The translations under genes and the position numbers were made by a program. From assembly GCA_008330645.1 (NCBI GenBank), contig VLTN01000001.1, positions 1-64,000 on the forward strand: DNA of 64,000 nt. Reading direction: 5' to 3'. Shown here piece by piece: positions 16,860 through 59,352 of this stretch (position 1 is its first letter; the number at the start of each line of letters is the position of its first letter). A model generated the notes under the pieces. That model saw only the letters and a program-made list of their open reading frames with translations. It made no database searches and was not told the DNA's origin. The stretch is from Cafeteria roenbergensis (lineage: Eukaryota > Sar > Bigyra > Bicosoecida > Cafeteriaceae).

Positions 16860-17484
16860 GTGCGCCCCGATGGCGTGGCGTGGAACCACATCACGCCTCC
16901 GTTGGGAGCAGCTCGTCAGTGCCATGCTGTGTGTGCCTTGCAATCTCATCTGCGCGCCGCGTGGCACTCACCGAATTTTGCGATGACAACCTTCCCTGCG
17001 ACAGCGCCCAGGCGAGCGAGCGTGCGCGGGCCGTCGTTGCAATGCCGCTTGTTATGGCACTGCGCCTGCCCCCCACTCCGCTTGGGCCTGCATGGCTTGC
17101 TGCAAGCGCAAACAGTGGGAGAGGGCGAGCGCTTCACCGCCAAGCCGAACAACGCGGCGCCCAACAGCTTCACAACGGCGCGACACCCGGACTGCCGCGC
17201 TAAAGCGCAGCCTAGAAGCAGGCGATGCGTTTTGCCAATCTTGGGATCAAGTTGCGTCGCTGGGCGACGCTGCACCGCCACGGGCGAGGCAAGTTGCAAC
17301 GGCGTGCGGTTGCCATGGCAGAGCCGCGCTTGCCGATGGCCGTGTGCGGCCCCCACGGCCAGGCCAGCCTCGCCGCGTGGTCAAGAGTCTGCACCCTTGC
17401 CGCGTGCGGCGGAGCGCCACGAGGGCAGGCCCGTTGCGCGTCGAGTCCAGCACTCGGGGCAGGGCACCGCTGCCGCTGGCCGCA
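16860..17484. other. intergenic, 5' region of the giant WW/EF-hand/ankyrin gene
   Basis: A short GT-rich stretch (about 16920-16945, GCTGTGTGTGCC) follows the preceding stop and fits the downstream-tract pattern seen at other genes. The reading frame of the next gene stays open back to 17092, but upstream of 17485 it has no clear protein character. Nothing else is recognised. Confidence 0.4.
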
Positions 17485-18317
17485 ATGGCCGCTGCAGGCA
17501 ACGGCTCGCGCACGGGCGGCGGGCGGCGGGGCAAGGCGCCCACCACGGGACTGGGTTATGACGAGGACACTCGCCAGTTTCTGCTGGAGGCCGAGACGAC
17601 GGCCCGCAAGGCGCTGCGCTCGCTGAAGCAGCGGGCCAAGCGGGCAGGCGGTTCGGCAGAGGGCAAGCGCTCCGAGCCTCGGGCGCCGCCAGCGGGAGCG
17701 ACGGGCGCCCCGCGCTCGGCTGGGCACTTTTTGGGGCGTGGCGACACCGGCGAGGCGTTTTCTGTGCCCTCGCTCGCGCGGTCTCGGGCTGCGTCGGCCG
17801 CGGAATTGCAGCACGCCTCGGCGTCCGTGCCTGGGTCGCCCGTCCGGATGGGGGGCGCCCCACTCTCCGCATCGTCGGTCGGATTGGGTGGCAGCGCGTC
17901 GCTCGCGCCCCTGGCCCGTTCCTGGGCCGGCACTGTTGGCGGCGGCGCAGCCACCGCGTCAGGGTCTCTTGCTGGCTCGATGTCCGGCTCGCTGCGCTGG
18001 AGCGAGGACCCCGGGGTACCCACGCCCGGCGCTGCAGGCGTGTCGACGGGTCTGGAGGGCAGCACAGTGTTGCGCGGCGGCCGCGCCGCGGGGGCTTCCG
18101 GCAAGTCCCTCCCGCCCCTCCATTCCTCCGGCGTGGTTCCCGACCCAAGCGGCCGCAAAAAGAAGCCGCACCCCCGGGACACAGAAGCCCCGGCCGCGCG
18201 CACAGCGGCGAAGCTGCTGCAGTCGCCGCTGGCGACCGCAGTGGCGTCGAACGGCAGCAAGCGCGACAGCCTTCGCCGCAGCCTGGAGCGCACGGCGCGC
18301 CGGGCCGCCAAGCGAGC

Positions 18318-18353
<36 letters not shown>

Positions 18354-21300
18354 CGGCGCAGAGGGCCATGGCGGGCCAGGCGTCCCTGGTGGCGGCGGCG
18401 CGCCCGTCATGTCGGGCGAGGAGCGGCTTCGGAAGCAGGCGGAGGCGGAGGAGCGGTTTCGGCGCAAAGCCAGCCTCGGAGGCTCGCGCTCCATCGTTGT
18501 GGACCCATCGGGCGGAGCCGGCGACCCGACGGCCGAGGCGGCCCCGTGGACCACACCGGGGTCCCCTCTCGGGGGCATGGACGCAGCGTCGTCCGCGGCC
18601 CGCGGGCCGGCGGACAAGGCAACGGCCGCCTTCGCATCGTCCATCGGGAGCCTGACGCAGTCAGCCGCGGCGGCGTCTCTCTCGGCGCCGTGGAGGCGCC
18701 CCGACCACGCGCTTTCCCGCCGTCGCGACGCGTCGCGATGGGCGGACCCGGCTCGCTCCACCGAGCTGGAGACCGGGCTGAGCGGGGCGGCCGGCGCGGT
18801 TTCCGCTGCCGTGTCGCAGACCGGCCACCGGGAGGACTGGTCCTCGGCCGCGCTGCACGCTCGGTTCCGCGACGAGTCGGTGCGGTTCGAGGCGTGGGTG
18901 CAGTCGCGCGCGGCAGCGGAGGAGGCGGCGCGTGTGGAGGAGGACACGGGCGTGGTGATGCCAGTGGCCGTGTCGGACCCCCACCCAGTGTGGTCCTGGT
19001 CGCAGTCCCTGGTGGCGCGCGAGAACGCGTCCGCGAGGAAGCTCGCTCGCGCCAGGGCGCTGCGGAAGGTGTACTCGCTGGACGTGCGCGCGGTGTGGCT
19101 GGCGGGCGACCTGCCCATCGAGGCGCCCCTCCCGTGGCGGGCAGAGCCGTACGGGGGAGATGGCGGAGGCAGGGGTCGCGGGGCAGCGGGCCGGGCCAGC
19201 GCAGAGGAGGTGGTGGCCCGGCGCGCCCTAGCCGGGCGACGGGACGACGCAGCCCTGCGCGCCGGCCACCACCAGATCCAGAGCGTATCGCTCAGGCGCG
19301 CAATGCAGGAGGCCGTCGTCACCCCGGTCGCCGACGCGGCCGACGTGCAGCGCAGCGTGAGGGAGGCGCCCCAGCGGCGCAGCGCCGAGCAGGAGGCCCG
19401 GCGCAAGGCCGAGGCCGAGGCCGCTGCGCCCGCGGTCGTGGCCCGCCTGCCCTGGTTCGGGGCCCGCTGCGCGCTCTCCCACCTTCCCCGCGCCAGCCGC
19501 GTTGTGGGGGCCGATGGCGGGCAGGGCGCAGCGGGCGGGGCTGCCGAGCCACCCTCCACTTCTCGCGGTAGAGCAGGCGACGCCGCTCCCGCCCCCGCCC
19601 TGGCGTGGCTCCCGCGGCCCCAGGAGCGCATCGCCTCCGTTCGCGTCGTCAGGGAGGTGCCGATAGACCGTGCTGCCCTCCGCCAAGCCCAGACGCCGCT
19701 CGACCCGGCGACGGCGTCTGCCGGTGCCGGCCGCACCGATCCCGAGTCGGCAGCAGAGCCGGCAGAGGGGCCGCCGGTGGCATTCTTCGACGAAGGCAGG
19801 CGCGTGGCGTCGCCCGAGGTGGGCGAGGCGGACGGAGTCGCCGAGCCGCCACTCGCGTCCCCGGGAAGGCCCGCCTTGAGCGCCGGCCACCCTGCCGAGG
19901 CCGAGGAGGGGGAAGCCGAGGAGGATGACGGCGCCGCCAACGCAACGATGCTTGGCCGTGGCCGGGCGGCCGCTGTGACGATCGAGGCGGAGGTTGACTC
20001 CGACCGCCCCGACACTGCGCCCCGCATGTTGCGAGCCCGCGTGCCCATTGACGTGTTCGCCGAGGTGGTGCGACGGGAGGCCGAGGCGGCTCTGCCGGCG
20101 CTGGAGGACGCGGCCGCGGAGGCCGCTGAGGCGCACCAGGCCGTGATGACGGCAATCGCTGCGGTGCGGGACCGGCGAGCAGTCGCGGCGGGGGACAGGC
20201 CCGAGATGGCGGTGGACCCGGCCACGCCCGCCCGCAGCCCGGTGCGCGGCACGGGCGTGCCGCGGAGCGTCGCGGCCGCTGGCTACGCGGCGGTGGCGCC
20301 GGCCACGGGCGCGGCAGCGGCAGGCGGGAGCGCCCTGACAGATGGGACGCCGTCCCCTCCCTCTGCCGGCGGGTCGCAGTCGCATGGGGGGTCCTCTCCC
20401 GACCAGCGCGCGCCGCAGGAGCAGCCGTCTTCGCCGTCCCCGTCGAGTCCAGCGGGGAGCGGCGCGGGCGGCGCCGGGGCCGGGGCCGGGGCCGGGGCCG
20501 GGGCCGGGGCCGGGGCCGGGGCCGGGACCGCCGAGGCGGGGACCGCGCCGTCGAGCGGCCCAGCAGGCGCGCTGGAGGACGCTTGGGAGGCGCAGCAGTC
20601 GGAAGAGGCGGACGCGGAGGAAGCCGCCGCCGCCGGGGCCGCGAGCCGCGCTGCGGTGGCCAGGGAGCGCTGGCGGGAGGCGCGCGAGGCGCTCGACTGG
20701 GCAGAGCAGCTGGCCGACGAGGCCACGTCGGCGGACAGGCCCCTGGAGACGGTGCTGCTGCCTGCGGGGCCGATCCGGGCGGCGGATGCCGCGGCGGCGA
20801 GGGCACACCTGCGGGGGCACGTGGCCGGCGTGCGCGGGCCTGACGGCGACGGGTCGGTGCACGTGGCGGGGGCCTCGAGCCAGGAGCCGCCGCCACCGCC
20901 CTCCGGCGCGCTCAGGCTCGTGCTGTCGATGCTGCAGCTGGTGCTCGCCCACGAGCCGCCGGCTCTGGCCCCGCGCGGCGCGCTGGTGCGGGAGTGGGGC
21001 GCGCCTGCTGCGCTGGGCGTGAACGACGCCGCCGAGGGGGGCGAGGGCGCCAGCCCGTGGGAGCCCGACGCCGCAGGGGCCGACGTGCAGACCTGGCCCG
21101 GGGTGGGCGGCACGCGCATGGTTGGCCGGTTCGACGACGACGGACGCACCGCCGGTCGGCCAGCGGAAGTGCTCGGGTTCGCAGGGGCGGTGTGGGGGGC
21201 CGCTGAGCTGCGCCGGGCGCGCGAGGCCGGCGCGAACCCCAACACCGCCGAGCAAACTGCCCTGGGACTGGGAGGCGCCGCTCCCGACACTGCGGCAGCG

Positions 21301-24300
21301 TGGGACGGCGTGGCCGAGGGCGGCCTGGCCGCGGCTGGCGCTGCTGGCGCTGCTGGCGCTGCTGGCGCGGCTGGCGCTGCTGGGGGCAGCAGGGAGGACG
21401 CTACCGGGTCAGGCGGGGGCAGCGCTCGGCCCAGGACGCCGAGCGGCGCTGGCTCCTGGGACGGGTCTGGGGGAGCCGCGTCGGCGGCCAGCCCTGCCTC
21501 CTCGCAGGCGGGGCCGGCGAGCAGGAGGGAGGGGCCCCGGCCGGCGGCCCAGCAGAGGGAGCGGGCTGTCCACGCCATCACGCGCGTGGCCCTTCGCGGG
21601 GGCAGCGCCGCCCTCGGGCCAGGGGGCGAGGCGCTCCTGCTCCCGGAGCTGACGCCAAGGCAGCTCGAAGCGGTGGCGTCCGGCGCGGCCAGCGCCGGTG
21701 CGGAGGCCCTCGCTCGCGCCATGGGGGTGCGCGGGGCCGTGGCGCTGCCGGCGCCGCACCTTAGGGCTCTCTCCGCCGCCCTCGACCCGCCGCTGGTGGC
21801 CGTCCTCACTGGTGCCGCCGCGCGCGGCTTGCTGGCCTGCGTGCCAGGCGCTGCAGTCGTGGGCCGCCTGGACCCGGTGGTTGCGCTGCTTTCCAGGGAC
21901 AGGGCGCGGTCGCGCGCCGGTCACCTCATGGCCGTGCTCGCGGCAGCGGTCGACACTGGCGAGACGGCCGTCGCCGGGCTGGCCGAGGACCTGGACGGCG
22001 AGGGCGCCGCCTCCGGCTCGGGGGGCGTGGCGCCGCGAATGGAGGTGCCCACTGGGGAGGCGGCGTATCTTCGTCGCTCCGCGGCCGTGGTGCTGGCGGC
22101 GCCGGGGCTTCTGCCAGCTCTGCTCTCCGCCAACGACTGGTGCCTGCCCCCCACCATCACGCTGCTTGGCGACGCTGCCGACGACGACGTCGACGCCCCA
22201 CCCGACGCGATCCTGCCGGGTTTCAGGCGCAGCAGCGCCCCTGAGAGGCTCCGGTTTGGCGCCGACCGGAGACCCACGGCTCAGCCGCCCCCCGCCTCGC
22301 AGGCCGAGGCGGACGCCAGGCCGCAGCTCGAGGCGGTCCCGGAGACCGCCACCGCCGCCCTCGGGTTCCGCCTGTGGGAGCGCGTGGCGGCCGCCCGCCC
22401 GGCGGGGGACTTTGCCCCGTCCGCCTTTGGCGTCTCGCGCGGGTCCGCAGTGCCCAACGCGGCCTCCCTCTGGCCCCGCCGGTTCACCTGGCACTCGTCC
22501 GCCGCCATTCGCACGGGCCTGTCGCACGGCTGGAAGGACTTCTTGTACATTCTGGAGAACAGGACGGTGTCCTCCGGGCCCAACGAGGCCACCACCTTCA
22601 CCACGCGAATGGACTTCGAGAGGTGCGCCCGCGTCGACAGCGCCTCGCTCCGCGCCATCAGGGAGCTGGAGCGCCGCAACGAGGAGCAGCGCGCAGAGCT
22701 GCGCCGCCGCGCAGACGAGGCCGCCCGCATGGAGCGCGCGGCCGAGCGCAAGGCGCGCAAAGCAAGGGCCCGGGCAGAGCTGGCCCGGCAGTGGCGCGAG
22801 AAGCACATCCGCGACGCAGCGCGCCTGCGGGGCAGCGCGCCCACGCTGGGCCTGTCCGAGGCGGACTGGCACTCGATGCGGTCCGGGCACGGCGCAGAGG
22901 TGACTGCGAGGCACCTGGGGTGGGAGCGGTGGATCCAGTCGGCGCCGCGCGAGGGCGGGGCGGGCCCCGACGAGGCGGCGCGGCAAGCGGTGCTGGAAGG
23001 CCGCGGCGCCGACGTCGCGGGGCTGGGCGAGGACGTGGTGGCGGTGTGGTACCACCATCCAGAGAGCGGCGCCAGCGGGTGGGACCCGCCGGACGGGTGG
23101 CCCGAGGAGGATGCGCTGGCGGCAGAGGGAGCGTCGCTTGAGGACGCCGTGCGAGCCGCTGCTGCCGAGCAGCTCGTGGTGGCGGCGGTGGACTTGCCCG
23201 AGGCCATGGACGCCGCCCGGCGGGAGGAGGAGGACGCCGTGCTTCCCGCCGACGTCACCGTGGCGTCGCTGATGGGCGCTCGCGCGGAGGCGGGGTTCAG
23301 CGGGAGCTCTGCCAGCGCGGGGGCGCGCGGCGACGAGGCGCTGGCGCCGGCCGCTCCCGCAGCGCAGTCGGCTTGGCTGCTGCCCACGCCCGCAGTGCTG
23401 TCGTCCGCCGAGGCCGCGGCCGCGTGCGAGGAGGTGGTCGTTCGGTCGCTGCTGTTCGCCCTGCGGGCGTGGCTTGCCGAGGCAGCGAGCCGGGGGTGCG
23501 TGGACCCGGGACGCGCGTTCAAGCCACCCATCGCGAACCCTGCCGGGGGGCGGGAGTCCGACCCTGGCGACGAGGACGGCTCCCACGCCCAGCGGGCGCT
23601 GGACGCGGCAGAGCGCGTGGTGGCGGCAGGGCAGGCCCGGCTGGACCCGGTGCGGCGGCTGGCGCGGCGGGGCGGTGCCGGCCGCGGCGGGCAGCCGTCT
23701 GCGGCGGCCGGCGGTGAGCAGGGAGACGACGGCTACGACGACGGCGACATTGCGGGCATGGACTGCGGCATCGAGCCCGGCAGCGGCGGGGAGGGCCGCG
23801 CGGGCGGCGCGTGGCGGGCAGGCGCCCCATCGGACCGCTTCGACATGGCCTCGGTGTTCCTGTTCCTCGACAGAGACGGGGACGGCGCCGTGTCGGCCCG
23901 CGACTGGGCGGTGCTGCTGACAGGCGAGGGGGGCGGCGCGGGGGCCGGGGCGCAGGCGGCGCGGGCTCTGCCGGCGGCGGACCGTGTGGCCGGGGAGGTG
24001 GTCCGGGCGGCTCTCTGGCCCCACTTTCGCGCAGCGCTCGGCCGGCTCACGCCCCCCGCGCTGCGGCCGCTGCTGGCCACGCGGGTGCCGTCGCTCGTGG
24101 ACGAGGACGCGGTGGCGGCCATGACGGGAGGCGACGGCGGGTCGGCCCCTGTGGCCGTGTCCCAGACTGTCAAGGCGCGGCTTGAGCGGGGCGAGGACCC
24201 CGATGGGGTCACCAGCGGAAGGAGCGCCGCGGCTCTGCTCGCGTCTCTCATGACGCCGGCCGTGAGGATGCGGGCGTTCAGGGCCGTGAAGCGACAGCGA

Positions 24301-26010
24301 GCCTTCTTCCCGCGGGAGGAGGACGCGGACAAGCGGCCGCAGCTCCTGCGGCACGACGAGCTGGTCAGGTGGGTGGCGGGCGCGGCGGAGGGCTCGGACT
24401 GGTTCGGGGTCAGCACCACCTCGGGCCTTCACGCGCCCGTGGCCACCTGGGGGGCGCTGGGCGCGCGCGAGGCCGTGGCGCAGGCGGCTGCCGAGTGGGT
24501 GCCTGCGATCGACCCGGCCTCCGGGGAGGCATACTATTCGTCGTCGCTCACCGGGGCGTCCGTGTGGGAGAAGGGCGCCCCCCAGCTGCAGGCGGAGGCG
24601 GCGCTTCGGCGGGCGGTGGTGGCCGCGCTGGACACGGAGGCGCGCTCCCAGGAGGCCCAGTACCGCTCCGGGCTGCGCCGGGCCCGGGACCACGCCGAGC
24701 GGCTTCGGCGCCGGCGGGGCGGGCCGTCGGACAGGGCGGGCGGCGCGCGCGAGGGAGCCGGGGCCGGAGCCGACGGGGCCGGGAGCGGCGCCGGGACGGC
24801 CGACAGCCAGGGCGCAAGTCTGGGCGCGGTCACGGCCGAGTCGGTTGCGCGGGCGCTCGCAGGCGACGACGCTCTGGTCCGAGCCCTGGCGCAGAGGCTC
24901 GGCCTCCCCGTTCCAGCGCCGGCCCCACAGCAGGCTGGCGTTGGAGCTGGCGTTGGAGCTGGCGCTGGTGCTGGCGCTGGGGCTGGGGCGCTGGCCGATC
25001 GGGCCGTGCCTGGGCGGCGCCGCTGGGGCGCCGGCGAGGGCAGAGGCGCGGCGGACGGGGGCGCTGCCGAGTCCCCGCGGTTTCAGGCGCTCCGCACGGC
25101 CGACGGAGGGGGTGGCGGCGTGCGGGACCTGGAAGGCGCTTTTGCGGACTCGCTGCCTGGCGCCGTGGAGTGGGACGAGGAGGAGGAGGAGGAGGCAGAG
25201 GGAGGGGGGCAGGACGCGCGCCGGCGGGGGGGCGAGTCGGCTCTACGCGGCGGCTCCGCCAGCCTGGGGGGCAGGGCCGGGCCTGCAGGCGGCTTGCTTG
25301 TGGACCAGGCGGGCGGCGGCGCCGGGCTGGAGTGGCGCCAGCTCAAGCCCCCCCGAGAGGCCAGGCGGCTCCGCGCGCGCGCGAAGGAGAGCCACGTGCT
25401 GGGGGCGGGGCGGTCCGAGGGCGTGAACAAGGGCAACGTGTCTCGCGTGGTGGGCCTCGTGGCTCCGCGCGACGTGACGGTTGCCCCGACTGTGATCGAC
25501 CCGCCCTTCATCATCCCGGTGCTCGTCACGGACATCACCGCGGCCGCCGGGGAGGCCGGTCTGACCGTGACCATCGACCCCCGCACCGGCGCCCGCGTGG
25601 TGAAGCAGGCTGCCGAGGCGGACGAGGAGGGCGCGGAGGCGCGTGCGCAGGAGAAGGCCCTGGCCGACGCCTTCTCAGCCGTGCGCGCCGGCAGGCTGGA
25701 GGCTCTCCGCGACATCCTGGTGACGGGCATGGTGAATATCAACGACGACCGCGACGACGCGGGCAACTCTCTCTTCCACCTGGCGGCGCAGAACGGCAAC
25801 AAGCGGCTTTGCAAGGAGCTGCTTCGCAAGGGCGCCGACATCAACAGCAAGAACTCCAAGGGCAATACGGCGCTGCACTACTGCTTCGCCTACGGCTTCC
25901 CGGAGCTGGGGGAGTACCTGGTGTCCAAGGGTGCGGACGACACGATTGCCAACGGCGAGGGCGTGGCGCCCCGCGAGGGCCTCACCACCGAGGCTGTTGG
26001 CGCCATCTGA
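17485..26010 (+). CDS. giant WW / EF-hand / ankyrin-repeat protein, likely flagellar or cytoskeletal
   Basis: One uninterrupted 8.5-kb frame; the ATG at 17485 (MAAAGNGSRTGGG) gives 2841 residues, though the frame is open upstream to 17092. In order: a low-complexity N-terminus with 11 glutamines (about residues 279-289), a Gly-Ala dipeptide repeat (about 997-1013), Ala-rich repeats near 1285, a charged coiled coil (about 1722-1782), and a WW-like module with W...GWDPP (about 1855-1880). Then come an EF-hand loop DRDGDGAVSARDW (about 2125-2137), a second WW-like segment WVPAIDP...VWEKGAP (about 2338-2367), and two or three C-terminal ankyrin repeats (about 2752-2826; NSLFHLAAQNGNKRLCKELL, GNTALHYCFAYGFPELGEYL). 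Ankyrin ends of this kind are familiar from flagellate and ciliate proteins, so an axonemal or cytoskeletal role is inferred. The EF-hand implies calcium binding. Confidence 0.8.
18319..18351 (+). repeat. (CAG)11 trinucleotide tract, polyglutamine
   Basis: Eleven uninterrupted CAG codons encode 11 glutamines in the giant WW/EF-hand/ankyrin protein. The purity suggests recent slippage. Confidence 0.95.
20476..20523 (+). repeat. (GGGGCC)8 hexanucleotide repeat in a coding region
   Basis: Eight perfect GGGGCC units read in frame as a Gly-Ala dipeptide repeat, with near-repeat units on both sides. Runs of this sequence are known to form G-quadruplexes. Confidence 0.95.
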
Positions 26011-50450: not shown

Positions 50451-51549
50451 ATGGCATCGGCATCTTCGCCCCCTGCGGGAGGCGTCGAGACCTTTCGGCG
50501 AACCTTGGCCGTGCTGGGTTTTCGAGGCGTCGGTGAGCACGCGGAGCCAGCCCCTCGGCAGCGTCAGGCAGCACTCCGTGGCTGCGCAGGGCTGCCCGGC
50601 GGCCGAGGCGCCCAGGGGGCTCGACCAGCTCCGCCCCGCCTCCCGCCGGGCTAGCCGTGGGCTCTTGCGACCCGGGGCGAGCCTCCGGCCGCTCGTCCTC
50701 ACTGCGGCAGTGGCGTGCCTGCTTTGCCGTTTTTCTCGCTGCTTCGCTGCAATCGCAGGCAAGAGCTCCCTCCTCTCCAGCCTGCTCGGGCGGGACTTTT
50801 CGGAGGACTACGAGCCCACGGTTGTCGCGACGCACCGCCACACCCTGACGATGAAGGGCGGGCGCGTCCGGTTCGACCTGAAAATCGTTGATACTGCCGG
50901 GCAAGATGAGTTCAGCACCATTCCGACCGAGGCTTCCCTAGGCGTGCACGGGTACATCCTCGTGTTCGACGTGACTTCCCGCACCTCCTTCGAGAAGCTG
51001 CGCCACATCAACGACAAGTTGCTTGAAGCCATCGGAGCCGACGCTGTTCCCCGCGTGGTGGTCGCGAACAAGAGCGATCTTCGGCCAGACTCGTGAGTTG
51101 TTTGTTACGGGCCGCGATCGCACGCCCGCCGCCCCCCCCCCGGGTTTCTGCTCCCGGGCTCCGCCGATGCGTCGGCGGACGGGTGGCTGGGTGGAGTGTT
51201 GCGTGGACTGTGGGGCGCACGGCCTGGTAGTGGAGGTGTCACGGGGCTGTGCCGGAGCTGCTGAGCATGTTTTTCAATCCGCTGCGCGAGTCGCGCCAAC
51301 CGCCTCTCCCCGCGAGCCTTTCCCTGCTGTCGGGCCGCGAGTCGCAGCGCCCAGCAAGTGTCGGACGCGGAGGGCCGCGAGCTGGCCGCGCTCATCGGAT
51401 GCAAGCTGGTGGAGACGTCGGCGCGCACGTCCGAAAACGTCGAGCACCTGTTCGAAACCATCCTGCGCCAGGTGGAGGCCCGCACGGGGTTGCTGGACGA
51501 CGACCCTGCGCCCGCACCCAAGCCAGGGCGCATTTGCGCCGTGCTCTGA
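50451..51549 (+). CDS. RHEB: Rheb-like small GTPase with CaaX end
   Basis: Exons 50451-50532, 50759-51092 and 51348-51549 (introns 226 and 255 bp, GTGAG/CGCAG) give 205 residues. Rheb switches TORC1 signalling on endomembranes. The first splice completes the P-loop GFRGVGKSS (residues 23-31), with Arg at the position typical of Rheb. Then come DYEPTVVATHRHTL (switch I), DTAGQDEFSTIP (switch II), GYILVFDVTSRTSFE, ANKSDL, and, after the second splice, ETSAR. DTAGQDE-x-S-x-x-P and GYILVxxVTS match Rheb better than Ras or Rap. The C-terminal CAVL is a CaaX box; Leu at X predicts geranylgeranylation. The tail lacks a polybasic stretch. Confidence 0.85.
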
Positions 51550-54042: not shown

Positions 54043-57000
54043 ATGGAGTCGCAGATCGACCGGGGCTTCCGCCTCGCGTCGTCTGCCTCGACTTTCGAGT
54101 CGATCGGAGACATGACCGCAGCGTACGAACTCTGGATGCAGGCGGCCAACGAGCTCCTGGGCGTGGCGGAGGTGCTGCACGACCAGGACCCTCGCCGATC
54201 CGTGATTATGCAGCACTGCCACGGCTGGATTCAGCGCCTTCGGACGATGGGGCCCGCGCCGCAGCATCCTGGGCACCCCGCGCATGCGGCGGCACAGCCG
54301 TCCGCAGCGGGCTTCCCCCCAGATCACAGCCCCGGCCCGCACGGCGAGGCCGACGCGGCAGCGGCCAGCCCCGTGCCCCCGTCTCATTTCGCGGCCATGG
54401 GCGCGTGGCCCGAGGTGCCAGGGCAGTCGCCGGTGCCGTCCGCGTCTCTGGACGACGCGCAAGACTGGCCCTTGCCGCCCGGGGCCGTGCTGCCGTCGGC
54501 AGCGCCCGCCAGCCAGGTTTGGGATGCCCCTCCCGCGGAGTCGCCCCTTCCTCCCGCGGGGCCGGCGCCTTTGCCAGCGCACGCGCCGGCCGCCCCCCAG
54601 CCGGCCGCGCAGGCGCATTTCGCCGTGTCGGAGGCGGACCTTGCAGCTCTGCTGGACGCAGACGGCGACGCCGCGGGGGACGACGACGACGACGACGACG
54701 AGCTGGCGCTGTACGGGCTGCCCGCTCCGGCCCGTGATGAGGCGGTGGGAGGGCCAGCTGCGCCGGCCGCCCCGCACCTCGGCCTGACGCCGAGCGACGA
54801 CGCGGCTCTGCAGGCAGAGCTGCAGGCGTACCTGGACGCGCCGTTGGCAGGGGGAGGCGCCTCGCCCGAGCCGGCTGGGGGTAGCGAGGCCCGCAGCGAG
54901 GCGGCCGGCGCCTCGGCGGCCGGCGGCGGCGACAGCCACGAGGACGACGAGGACGAGGGAACTGCGCAGCCTGCCGAGGACGCGCCGACGCCCTGCGGGC
55001 GGGAGGGGCCGGGCGAGGAGGGCGGCGATGGCGGGGCGCCCGGGCGGGACCCCGGTGGCGAGATCGGTGCAACGCCTGCGTCCCGAGAGCCGGCCCCAGC
55101 GCCGTCCGCTCCCGGCCCTGGCCCCGGCTCTGCGCCGCCTGGGGGGGGGGATGCGGGGCCGGAGTCTCTGCGCGTGACGGTGCAGCAGCTGGAGGCGGAG
55201 CTGCGAGAGCTCCGTCAGCAGCGCAGCGCCAGCGGCGAGGACTCCTCGGCGGTCGCCGCGGCCGGCATGGACGGTGTCGAGGACATGACCGTCACCTTTC
55301 CAGCGTCCATCCCGGCCGCGGCTGCGCCGGCCGACGAGGCCACGGGCCTCTGGGCCCTGGTGAGGGGCCCCGCTGCCGCCCCCATCTGCGCAGCGCCGCC
55401 CCCCTCCGGCGCGGCTCTGGTGCAGTTGCCGGCTGGCTTGGCGAGCGCGTCGGCGATCCTTCCCGAGTCGTCGCGCTCTGCCGAGGCGTGGATCATCCCA
55501 GCGGCCGCCAGTCCGTTTGCCTGCGCGCGGTTTCGCACGATCGCAAGAGCAGCGGCGCAGGGCGACTCGCTGCTCCGGTGCGTGCAGGGCGCGCTCGTGC
55601 TTCCGCCGCCGCCGCCGCCGTCGTCGTCCCCTGCGAGCGAGGGCGCGTCGGCAGGCGCTGGCCCGGCCTCGGCCGCTGTGGCGCTTCTCGTGGCGCCGCC
55701 CCCTGCCGGCGCCGTCCCGCTTCGCCAGTGGATGGGCAGGCCTGAGCCCGGCAGGGCGGGCGCTGCTGGAGCTGCGGCGGCCGCCAGCGGCGCGGGCGCT
55801 GCTGCCGGCGGCGATGCAGAACACTCCAGCTCTGGCGCCGCTGCCGCTGGCGCCGCCGCCGCTGGCGCCGCCGCTGGCTCCGCCGTTGCCGCCGCTGGAG
55901 GCCGTGGCAACGGGCGCTCCGTCGCGGCGCGCGGTGCGGGGGCGTCCTCGGCGCCGCTAGCGTGCGGGCGACCTGCGGCGGAGGTGCGAGCTGTCTTCGC
56001 CCAGCTGCTGCAGGCGCTGGCTAGGCTCCACGCCGTGGGGCTTGCTGGCTGCCTGGATGCAGAGACAGTCATGGTCACGCCGGCCGACACGCCAGCCGGG
56101 CTGCCCACCGTCACCGTGCTGCCGGTACCCGCTGGCACGGGCGCGCTCGACTCATGCGCTGCTCCAGAGGCGCAGCAGGTCGCCTCTGCCGGGGCGCCGG
56201 AGGCTGCTGCCGCTGCGGCCGCGCCGGCGGGCATGCTGCCCTGCATCGGCGGCGGCTTTGCATCCCGCCCCGCCGACGTGTTCCTGGTGGCGGGGTGGCT
56301 GCTGGAGGCAACGAGCGGTCGGACGCCGGTGGTGATACCTGGGGAGGACACAGCCAGCGTGCCCGCCGCCTCCCCCGGCCTGTCGCCGTCGGACGGGCGC
56401 GTGCTGGCCACGTTGCTCCGCCCCTGCCTCTCCGCCTCCCCCGCCGACCGCCCGTCCGCGGCGGACGTCTGCCGGCACGGGTGGTTCCTCCGGTCGCGGG
56501 AGGACGACCTTGTGGCCTCGGGCGCGGTGGCGTCGCGGGAGAGCAAGCGGAAGATGCTGCGAGCCTACCTGGCCATGCTGGACGCGTCGCAGGAAGGGGT
56601 GCGCGCCCGCAGGATCACCCTCCGCAGGAGCACCATGTGCCAGCAGCTGCTGGAAGCGGTCTCGCGCCTCAGCCAGACGGAGCTCAGGAACAGGCTAACC
56701 ATCGTCATCGAGAACGAGCCGGGCGTGGACGCGGGGGGGCTGCTCTCAGAGGCCTACAATGCGACCTTCTCGCAGCTGTGCAAGCCCGACGCGCCGGCCA
56801 AGTGCGGCCTCTCCCACCCGATGTTCGTGTGCCAGGAGGCCGCGGCAGAGCCGCTCTTCCTGCCCTACGGGGAGGCCGAGGGGACGGCGACCGCCGGCAT
56901 GCTCAGCGCGCCCGAGCGGCGGCTGTACGAGGGGGTGGGCCGCCTCCTGGCGCGCGCGGTGGCGGACAGGCGCCCCGTGCCAGCCCGGTTCGCGCCCTCG

Positions 57001-57672
57001 CTGTGGAAGTACCTGCTGGGGCTGCCGGTGGTGCTCGCGGACCTGCGAGCGTTCGACCCCAGGCAGGCGGCCTCTCTGGAGCGCTTGCTGGACATGAAGC
57101 CCGAGGCGTTTGAGTACCTCTACCTCGACTTCGAAGGGCTGGCCCCGCGCGGGGGCGACACGCCGGTGACCGCCGCCAACGTGGAGCGGTTCGTGGAGCT
57201 CAAGGCGCGGCAGCAGCTGCTCGGCTCGCGCGTGCACAGGCTCAAGGCCATCCGCGCTGGCTTCGAGGCGCACCCGCTGTCGGGGCCGCTGCTGGTGCTG
57301 TCCCACGCGGAGCTCGTGGGGGCCGTTTGCGGGGCGCAGGAGGTCACTGGACCGCAGGTCGCCGCCAAGCTCCGCTTCTCGGGGTTCCGGGAAGGCTCCA
57401 GCATCCCGCGGCACATGACCGCGGCGGTGAAGGCCCTGTCGCCCGAGCTCTGCAGCAAGCTGCTGCTCTACGTGACGGGTCTATCGGCGCTGCCCGGCCC
57501 GGACAAATCGATCAGAATCGCAGCGGTGGCGCGCACGGGGCAGCTGCCCGAAGCCCACACCTGCTTCTTGCGGCTGGACGTGTGCGACGACAACGCCGAC
57601 GCCGACGAGGTTGCGCGCCGGCTCCGCACCGCAATCGAGCACCTGGCGGACGCTGGCTTCGGCATTGAGTGA
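54043..57672 (+). CDS. MIT-like / pseudokinase-like / HECT E3 ubiquitin ligase fusion
   Basis: The ATG at 54043 gives 1209 residues in one exon. Residues 10-67 (SIGDMTAAYELWMQAANELL) look like a MIT three-helix domain, which binds ESCRT-III tails. A disordered, acidic Ala/Pro/Gly region runs to about 480. Residues 480-815 keep kinase C-lobe phrases: EVRAVFAQLLQALARLHAVG leads to a catalytic-loop position reading LAGCLDAETVMV instead of HRDLKxxN, then ADVFLVAGWLLEATSGRTPV and ASPADRPSAADVCRHGWF. It lacks HRD and DFG, hence pseudokinase. A HECT domain fills about 840-1206: ENEPGVDAGGLLSEAYNATF, GRLLARAVADRRPVPARFAP, LLLYVTGLSALPG, and the catalytic cysteine in LPEAHTCFLRL (Cys1174). A ubiquitin ligase acting on membranes or endosomes is inferred. 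Confidence 0.88.
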   Translation: MESQIDRGFRLASSASTFESIGDMTAAYELWMQAANELLGVAEVLHDQDPRRSVIMQHCHGWIQRLRTMGPAPQHPGHPAHAAAQPSAAGFPPDHSPGPHGEADAAAASPVPPSHFAAMGAWPEVPGQSPVPSASLDDAQDWPLPPGAVLPSAAPASQVWDAPPAESPLPPAGPAPLPAHAPAAPQPAAQAHFAVSEADLAALLDADGDAAGDDDDDDDELALYGLPAPARDEAVGGPAAPAAPHLGLTPSDDAALQAELQAYLDAPLAGGGASPEPAGGSEARSEAAGASAAGGGDSHEDDEDEGTAQPAEDAPTPCGREGPGEEGGDGGAPGRDPGGEIGATPASREPAPAPSAPGPGPGSAPPGGGDAGPESLRVTVQQLEAELRELRQQRSASGEDSSAVAAAGMDGVEDMTVTFPASIPAAAAPADEATGLWALVRGPAAAPICAAPPPSGAALVQLPAGLASASAILPESSRSAEAWIIPAAASPFACARFRTIARAAAQGDSLLRCVQGALVLPPPPPPSSSPASEGASAGAGPASAAVALLVAPPPAGAVPLRQWMGRPEPGRAGAAGAAAAASGAGAAAGGDAEHSSSGAAAAGAAAAGAAAGSAVAAAGGRGNGRSVAARGAGASSAPLACGRPAAEVRAVFAQLLQALARLHAVGLAGCLDAETVMVTPADTPAGLPTVTVLPVPAGTGALDSCAAPEAQQVASAGAPEAAAAAAAPAGMLPCIGGGFASRPADVFLVAGWLLEATSGRTPVVIPGEDTASVPAASPGLSPSDGRVLATLLRPCLSASPADRPSAADVCRHGWFLRSREDDLVASGAVASRESKRKMLRAYLAMLDASQEGVRARRITLRRSTMCQQLLEAVSRLSQTELRNRLTIVIENEPGVDAGGLLSEAYNATFSQLCKPDAPAKCGLSHPMFVCQEAAAEPLFLPYGEAEGTATAGMLSAPERRLYEGVGRLLARAVADRRPVPARFAPSLWKYLLGLPVVLADLRAFDPRQAASLERLLDMKPEAFEYLYLDFEGLAPRGGDTPVTAANVERFVELKARQQLLGSRVHRLKAIRAGFEAHPLSGPLLVLSHAELVGAVCGAQEVTGPQVAAKLRFSGFREGSSIPRHMTAAVKALSPELCSKLLLYVTGLSALPGPDKSIRIAAVARTGQLPEAHTCFLRLDVCDDNADADEVARRLRTAIEHLADAGFGIE

Positions 57673-57980: not shown

Positions 57981-59352
57981 ATGGATATCGGGGAGCACTG
58001 CTCGCACCCGAGCTGCGGGCGCCGCGGTGAGGCTCCTCCCCGCGCCGGCGTTGCGCGGCTAGCGTGGGCAGGGCGGGAAAGGCCCTCAGGAACGCGGCAT
58101 TGCGTTCCAGAACGGCCTGCCCGTCATTCCTCGCGGAACGGCAGGCCCGCCGGTGAGCCCGCCACCCTCGCCCCGCTGCCCGACTGCATTCCTCCACGCT
58201 GGCCGCTGCCGCGCACGCTCCCCGTGCTGGCGCGCAGACTTCTTGCCGTTCAAGTGCGACGCCTGCGACAACACCTTTTGCCTCGAGCACAGGAGCTATG
58301 ACGCGCATGAGTGCGCCAAGGCTGCAGGCCACGACCGAAAGGTCATCGCCTGCCCGGTTTGCCTGCAGCGCGTGCCGCTTGTGACGGGGGAGGACGTGAA
58401 CGTGACCTTCGAGCGGCACATGGCCAGCTCAGGGTGCAACCCCGAGAGGCGCAGCGCGCAGGGGCGCCGCAAGCCCAAGGCCACGTGCCCTGCCCCGGGG
58501 TGCCGCGCCACCATGGGGCCCTCCAACACCTTCAGGTGTCCGAGTTGCAGTCGCGACGTGTGCTTGGCGCACCGCCAGCCCGAGGCGCACAATTGCGGCG
58601 CGGCCAAGTCAGCGGCTCCGCGGGCAGCGGCTCCCTCTGCGCCCTCGCTGCTCGCCCGTGGCGGGTCCCTCGTCAAGGGCGTGCAGAGCCTCTTTGCCGG
58701 CCCCGCAGCGGCGCCGCCAGCCCGCGCAAGCGCCGCCGCGCCGGCCAAATCGCGGTCAAGCGCTCGCGCTGCTGCCGCGCTCGCCGCTGAAAGCAGGGCT
58801 GCTGAGCGGGCCGCAGAGGCCAAGCGGTCCGCCGATCGGCGCAGGGCTACCACAGCCAGGCCCGCTGCGCCGGGGCCCGGCGCTTCGGGGAGCAGAGCGC
58901 AAGCCACGGCTCCAGTGCGCATGGCTCCGGGAGAGATGTCTGCCCGCTTGCGGGAGGCGGCGGCCGAGCGATATGCCGCGCGCCAGGGCCCCGCTGACGC
59001 CTCGACAAGGCCCCCGAGGGAGGTATGCGAGCAGTGCGGAGCCCGCTTCGCTCGCGTCGAGCAGCTGGTGGCACACGCCATCGACAGGCACGGCATCGCA
59101 GGGGGCGCTCCGGCCCCGGCTCCGGCCCCGGCCCCGGCCTCGGCCGGCTCGTCGGCTCGCCCTGCGGGGGGCGTGGGCGGCGGCTCCATGGAAGTATGCC
59201 CGCGCTGTGGCCAGCGGTTTCGCGAGATCAGCGCCCTCATCGCGCACTGCGAGCCCGGCGGCGGCTGCGCCGGAGCCGGCGGGCCGCGCGCTGACGCCAG
59301 GGGTGCTCCGAGGGCGGCGGCTGCTGGGCAGAGCGACTGCAGCGTAATGTGA
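57981..59352 (+). CDS. AN1-type zinc finger protein with two C2H2 fingers and a CaaX end (AIRAP/AIRAPL-like)
   Basis: Exons 57981-58026 and 58238-59352 (211-bp GTGAG/CGCAG intron, phase 1) give 386 residues. The splice completes the first AN1 finger: EHCSHPSCGRRDFLPFKCDA, then CDNTFCLEHRSYDAHEC. A second AN1 follows at about 104-145 (CPAPGCRATMG...CPSCSRDVCLAHRQPEAHNC). This tandem is the plan of ZFAND2 proteins (AIRAP/AIRAPL), which work with the proteasome and p97 on stressed or ER-derived proteins. Here two C2H2-like fingers follow (CEQCGARFARVEQLVAHAID and CPRCGQRFREISALIAHCE). The last residues CSVM form a CaaX box; Met at X predicts farnesylation, and animal AIRAPL is also prenylated. 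No ubiquitin-interacting motif was seen. Confidence 0.88.
59114..59145 (+). repeat. CCGGCC/CCGGCT-type hexanucleotide repeat, Ala-Pro in frame
   Basis: Short run of GGCCCC-type units coding for alternating Ala-Pro in the AN1 protein linker. Confidence 0.85.

Follow-up and report, generated by a model that had tools for sequence, protein, structure and literature searches.

MIT domains in kinases and ubiquitin enzymes

Two human proteins, RPS6KC1, which also carries a PX domain, and RPS6KL1, join an MIT domain to a predicted pseudokinase, and to our knowledge neither contains a HECT or other ligase domain. In ULK3, two MIT domains follow an active kinase domain, and we know of no HECT domain in this protein. 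Passages of a survey of human MIT proteins list these (pseudo)kinases beside the deubiquitinases AMSH and USP8, and report that the RPS6KC1 MIT binds IST1 and CHMP3 and that of RPS6KL1 binds CHMP3, that AMSH and USP8 bind subunits of the endosomal sorting complex required for transport III (ESCRT-III) through their MIT domains, and that ULK3 acts on ESCRT-III (PMC9477494). The gene described here lies at 54043-57672 on the forward strand of a 64,000-nucleotide stretch of DNA from the marine bicosoecid flagellate Cafeteria roenbergensis (the window; contig VLTN01000001.1, positions 1 to 64,000). Its product resembles RPS6KC1 and RPS6KL1 in coupling an MIT-like bundle to a pseudokinase, and ULK3 in holding MIT-like and kinase-like parts in one protein, but differs from ULK3 in its single MIT-like part and apparently dead kinase. 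It shares with AMSH and USP8 the pairing of a ubiquitin enzyme with an MIT domain, whereas those enzymes remove ubiquitin and the HECT domain of the window protein is predicted to attach it.

Each of these parts is known. No description of MIT, pseudokinase and HECT together in one protein was recognised among the titles and abstract openings of the open-licence PMC papers searched, where a search for the combination itself gave one general review of ESCRT, and none is named in the passages of a paper on ubiquitin-system evolution (PMC4327156); the term "ubiquitin ligase" does not occur in the main text of the MIT survey (PMC9477494). Among HECT ligases, the protein is a new variant. We modestly favour the view that it is an E3 ubiquitin ligase of the HECT type whose domain architecture is new, and that it would be recruited through its MIT domain to ESCRT-III tails and would use the pseudokinase as a scaffold or regulator.

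Domain architecture and relatives

The reading frame runs uninterrupted from ATG to stop through 1209 codons, and shuffling its bases 1000 times never gave a stop-free sequence. The gene region has a guanine-plus-cytosine (GC) content of 71-77%, with many long open frames on both strands; because long chance frames are common at this composition, an open frame is by itself poor evidence, and the argument depends on homology. Two relatives, P0003 (1082 residues; sources jgi and ena) and P0009 (924 residues; source jgi), whose reading frames are gene calls, have the MIT-like part, the pseudokinase and the HECT domain in the same order as the Cafeteria roenbergensis protein (P0001). Residue 1 of P0003 aligns with residue 1 of the window protein, and the starts of both relatives coincide with its start or fall within a few residues of it. 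An earlier sequence-only reading had placed the three parts in one protein and named a shared order in relatives as a check; the single frame and the two further proteins bear this out, and the three-domain architecture and its order are well supported by three members. A protein search with the family profile (7987 candidates scored) found no new member, and its three new matches carry HECT as a precomputed domain, one of them together with C2 and WW. P0009 was missing from the output despite being in the query alignment, and an earlier protein search missed it too; since such searches lose real members, absence of the family elsewhere is not established.

The HECT domain is the clearest of the three parts. 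Pfam places it at residues 949-1208 (E=5.9e-38; 131.7 bits against a cut-off of 23.9), and the best match among solved structures in the PDB is the HECT domain of HUWE1 (E 6.2e-16, residues 832-1208). In that alignment Cys1174 lies opposite the cysteine in TCF of the HUWE1 chain (LPxAHTCF), and both the catalytic cysteine in HTCF and a near-C-terminal phenylalanine (GFGI) are present in all three members. Judged from these alignments, the domain looks intact, with the expected catalytic cysteine kept, as had been proposed from the TCF context of Cys1174. It is like the HECT E3s of the HUWE1/TOM1/NEDD4 type in its sequence, TCF active-site cysteine and C-terminal GFG with phenylalanine, but it is divergent, as its best PDB E-value indicates, and a Pfam search of the whole protein at E<=5 found no WW, C2, UBA or ankyrin part. 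A search of the same genome gave 21 HECT matches, the window gene included, and the divergence is also evident from the eight loci compared, all of them distant (22-33% identity to the window domain). When the members are aligned with distant HECT proteins, a 12-column gap precedes the GLxPxG stretch. A 12-sequence alignment including distant HECT proteins was sound in the HECT part only, and no structure prediction was based on it.

The N-terminal bundle and its candidate ligands

Structure comparison of the N-terminal part returned MIT entries in all of its 14 best rows, with other helical bundles close after, and the modelled part has the three-helix MIT fold. The Pfam MIT score is low: two N-terminal fragments gave E=2.6e-4 and 1.4e-4 at about 22 bits (22.3) against a cut-off of 30, the whole protein gave E=0.018, and at E<=10 only two of the three members match. 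The MIT-like bundle of the sequence-only reading thus stands as a predicted three-helix fold but falls below the Pfam cut-off; the case for its MIT identity is good by modelled structure and weaker by sequence.

The same genome holds six loci with Snf7-family matches, and ESCRT-III is therefore present. Three of the six (L042, L045 and L046) end in a C-terminal tail with LxxRLxxL, the core of the type-1 MIT-interacting motif (MIM1) consensus, where shuffled tails predict 0.004. No Snf7-family tail matched once the pattern was tightened to require an acidic residue at the third position ahead of the first leucine. The LxxRLxxL tails make it likely that an MIT domain in this cell has ligands. 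The bundle may, even with all three domains correctly assigned, bind some other helical partner, as in ULK1/ATG13, NRBF2 and katanin, so that the ligase would act in autophagy or on microtubules. Bundles of katanin, Atg1-Atg13, NRBF2 and TPR type are also among the structure-comparison rows, and according to passages of the MIT survey ULK1(MIT)2 bound ATG13, but no ESCRT-III partner of ULK3 (PMC9477494). We consider this rather unlikely, given that the nearest PDB relatives by sequence are the VPS4B MITs. Moreover, the leucine of VPS4B YLDRA, which we take to line the MIM1 pocket, has Ile63, Ile and Leu opposite it in helix 3 of the three members, the helix being gapped differently in P0009 between two alignments.

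The linker that follows the bundle differs among the members. P0009 has, at residues 94-146, repeats of type DDLDLPLPPGHELDLPPV, which resemble type-2 MIM (MIM2) elements. By one pattern, MIM2-like DLPxx sites number six in the P0009 linker and none in P0001 or P0003, and are thus not a family trait.

The public gene model

The public model FNF29_00014 (P0002) retains the locus as one gene and encodes 854 residues, lacking residues 54-190 and 440-657 of the open frame as two introns (Table 1). The first span holds MIT helix 3 and linker sequence and the second the N-lobe of the kinase plus helix E, and for this reason Pfam shows only HECT for the 854-residue model. If the model were right, real introns would leave a HECT ligase with mere relics of MIT and kinase. 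Both spans are flanked by GT and AG, and passages of the genome paper state that the Cafeteria models came from BRAKER trained on transcripts of strain E4-10P, with a mean of 1.67-1.89 introns per gene (PMC6972860). Codon-position GC in the second span is flat (0.79, 0.77, 0.79), position 3 having the highest value over 55351-55650 and the lowest over 55651-55950, which is rich in Ala. This flat profile, like the GT and AG ends, speaks for the public model.

The removed spans (411 and 654 bases) are, however, both multiples of three and stop-free, and the first has a coding-like codon-position GC (0.81, 0.66, 0.82). The stop-free state is weak evidence for coding, since 1157 of 5000 shuffles of the first span (taken as residues 54-187) and 689 of 5000 of the second were also free of stops. 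Conservation bears more directly on the folded parts: identity to P0003 within the spans is 7/17 in MIT helix 3, 48/111 aligned residues in the kinase N-lobe part (residues 440-565), and 17/21 in helix E, just before the end boundary of the second span. Splicing would also disrupt both the MIT and the kinase folds. With both spans open and partly conserved in relatives, the two introns are probably false, and it is quite improbable that the public model is right. The case suggests that, in a 70% GC genome, gene finders may splice out conserved coding sequence and so hide an architecture.

The kinase-like domain

Residues 418-832 are related to protein kinases. A profile built from the three family sequences matched 25 kinases of the same genome with 97.2% probability (HHalign; E 3e-11, 153 columns), and the maximum among 30 shuffled controls was 1.2%. 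Pfam finds no kinase in the whole protein at E<=5, and its Pkinase scores for the window fragment (10.7 bits, E=0.33), P0003 (15.7) and P0009 (16.3) lie below the 31.7-bit cut-off; a Pfam-only view of the whole protein misses the kinase that the profiles then show. Fold comparison also shows kinase likeness. Lack of a predicted kinase fold in residues 480-815 had been set beforehand as a refuting outcome; prediction does give such a fold, with confidence that is low to middling. In the AlphaFold2 (AF2) model of residues 418-567 (model residues 1-150), the predicted local distance difference test (pLDDT) by blocks is 58-88, except for 40 at model residues 111-120. The kinase-like C-lobe described from sequence is supported, but the likeness is not confined to it, as residues 418-567 appear to form an N-lobe-like part. 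A full-length P0009 model was confident mainly in the MIT part, and its kinase and HECT parts were not used as evidence.

The structural residues Asp745 and Arg803 are kept. In the family alignments, Cys670 replaces the HRD aspartate and the catalytic-loop asparagine is gone, and no DFG was seen in alignments of the domain, in agreement with the earlier call of a pseudokinase that has lost HRD and DFG. The beta-3 lysine is lost, there being no lysine in residues 418-832 or anywhere before residue 835, and no glycine-rich loop stood out on inspection by eye. These losses make it highly improbable that the domain is an atypical kinase or a nucleotide binder with unusual chemistry, although the cysteine at the HRD-aspartate place is invariant and some proteins without canonical kinase residues are active.

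Proposed mechanism

In the favoured scheme, the MIT domain would bind the C-terminal MIM tails of ESCRT-III subunits, as its family resemblance suggests, and would bring the ligase to endosomes or other ESCRT sites. A long flexible linker would connect it to a kinase fold devoid of catalysis, and this fold, by analogy with other pseudokinases, may serve as a binding scaffold or in allosteric control of the ligase. The HECT domain would accept ubiquitin from a ubiquitin-conjugating enzyme (E2) on Cys1174, as is the rule in its family, and pass it to cargo or ESCRT-associated proteins. Ubiquitination directed to ESCRT-coated membranes, as first proposed, is plausible, given the six Snf7-family loci and the LxxRLxxL tails of three of them. 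ESCRT-III sites recruit deubiquitinases via MIT domains, and a ligase with the same reader would put ubiquitin writing and erasing on one scaffold. The fusion itself may be an example from nature of ubiquitin transfer under the control of a kinase fold. A fuller proposal, which we hold tentatively, is that of a ubiquitin writer that reads ESCRT-III via its own MIT, is controlled by the fused pseudokinase, is self-protected by a lysine-free stretch, has been kept in at least three sequences and was hidden by false introns, and would be the counterpart of AMSH and USP8.

Table 1. Features of the MIT-pseudokinase-HECT gene (positions in the window).
Feature	Positions	Strand	Basis
Whole gene, 1209 aa + stop	54043..57672	+	Open frame; identical to FNF29_00014 (P0002) over shared parts
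MIT-like three-helix bundle (residues 4-70)	54052..54252	+	Pfam, fold comparison
Intron 1 of public model (residues 54-190), probably coding	54202..54612	+	Model alignment; GT/AG ends; conservation
Linker of Pro/Ala/acidic type (residues 71-415), without lysine and with poor conservation	54253..55287	+	Sequence
Pseudokinase N-lobe-like part (residues 418-565)	55294..55737	+	AF2 model; conservation in P0003
Intron 2 of public model (residues 440-657), probably coding	55360..56013	+	Model alignment; GT/AG ends; conservation
Ala-rich low-complexity insert within pseudokinase (residues 566-636), varies among relatives	55738..55950	+	Sequence alignment
Pseudokinase C-lobe (residues 637-832), HRD/DFG lost	55951..56538	+	HHalign 153 columns, 97.2%, E 3e-11
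Cys670 codon at HRD-aspartate place (profile alignment), invariant in 3/3 members	56050..56052	+	Alignments
HECT domain with N-terminal approach (residues 833-1209)	56539..57669	+	Pfam stretch 949-1208; PDB match
Cys1174 codon (LPEAHTCF), expected catalytic cysteine	57562..57564	+	Sequence alignment

The lysine-free stretch and neighbouring frames

Lysine deserts are described in ubiquitin-system proteins in passages of PMC10169902. Residues 1-834 of the window protein (54043-56544) contain no lysine and 39 arginines, against 12 lysines and 35 arginines in the remainder (Fisher P 3.7e-4 within the protein), and the lysine-free run terminates where the HECT part starts. The part ahead of HECT has one lysine and 47 arginines in 697 residues in P0003 (P=0.011), and five lysines and 32 arginines in 543 residues in P0009 (P=0.10). 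Among 49 open reading frames with a coding-like GC pattern, from the window and the loci, a comparable run occurs in two of the eight that reach at least 834 codons, the window gene and an ankyrin frame at 16987-26007, and the desert is for this reason suggestive only. If true, an 834-residue lysine-free stretch ahead of the HECT domain would prevent self-ubiquitination. The frame at 16987-26007 is open for 3007 codons; its product has C-terminal ankyrin repeats, matches WW weakly and includes 1042 consecutive residues without lysine.

Two nearer frames also have recognisable products. Upstream, 50749-51096 encodes a fragment of a Ras-family GTPase (Pfam Ras, E 9.1e-25). Downstream on the same strand, the frame at 58153-59352 shows similarity to zinc fingers of the AN1 and ZFAND2A/B-like kinds, and is of ubiquitin-system type.
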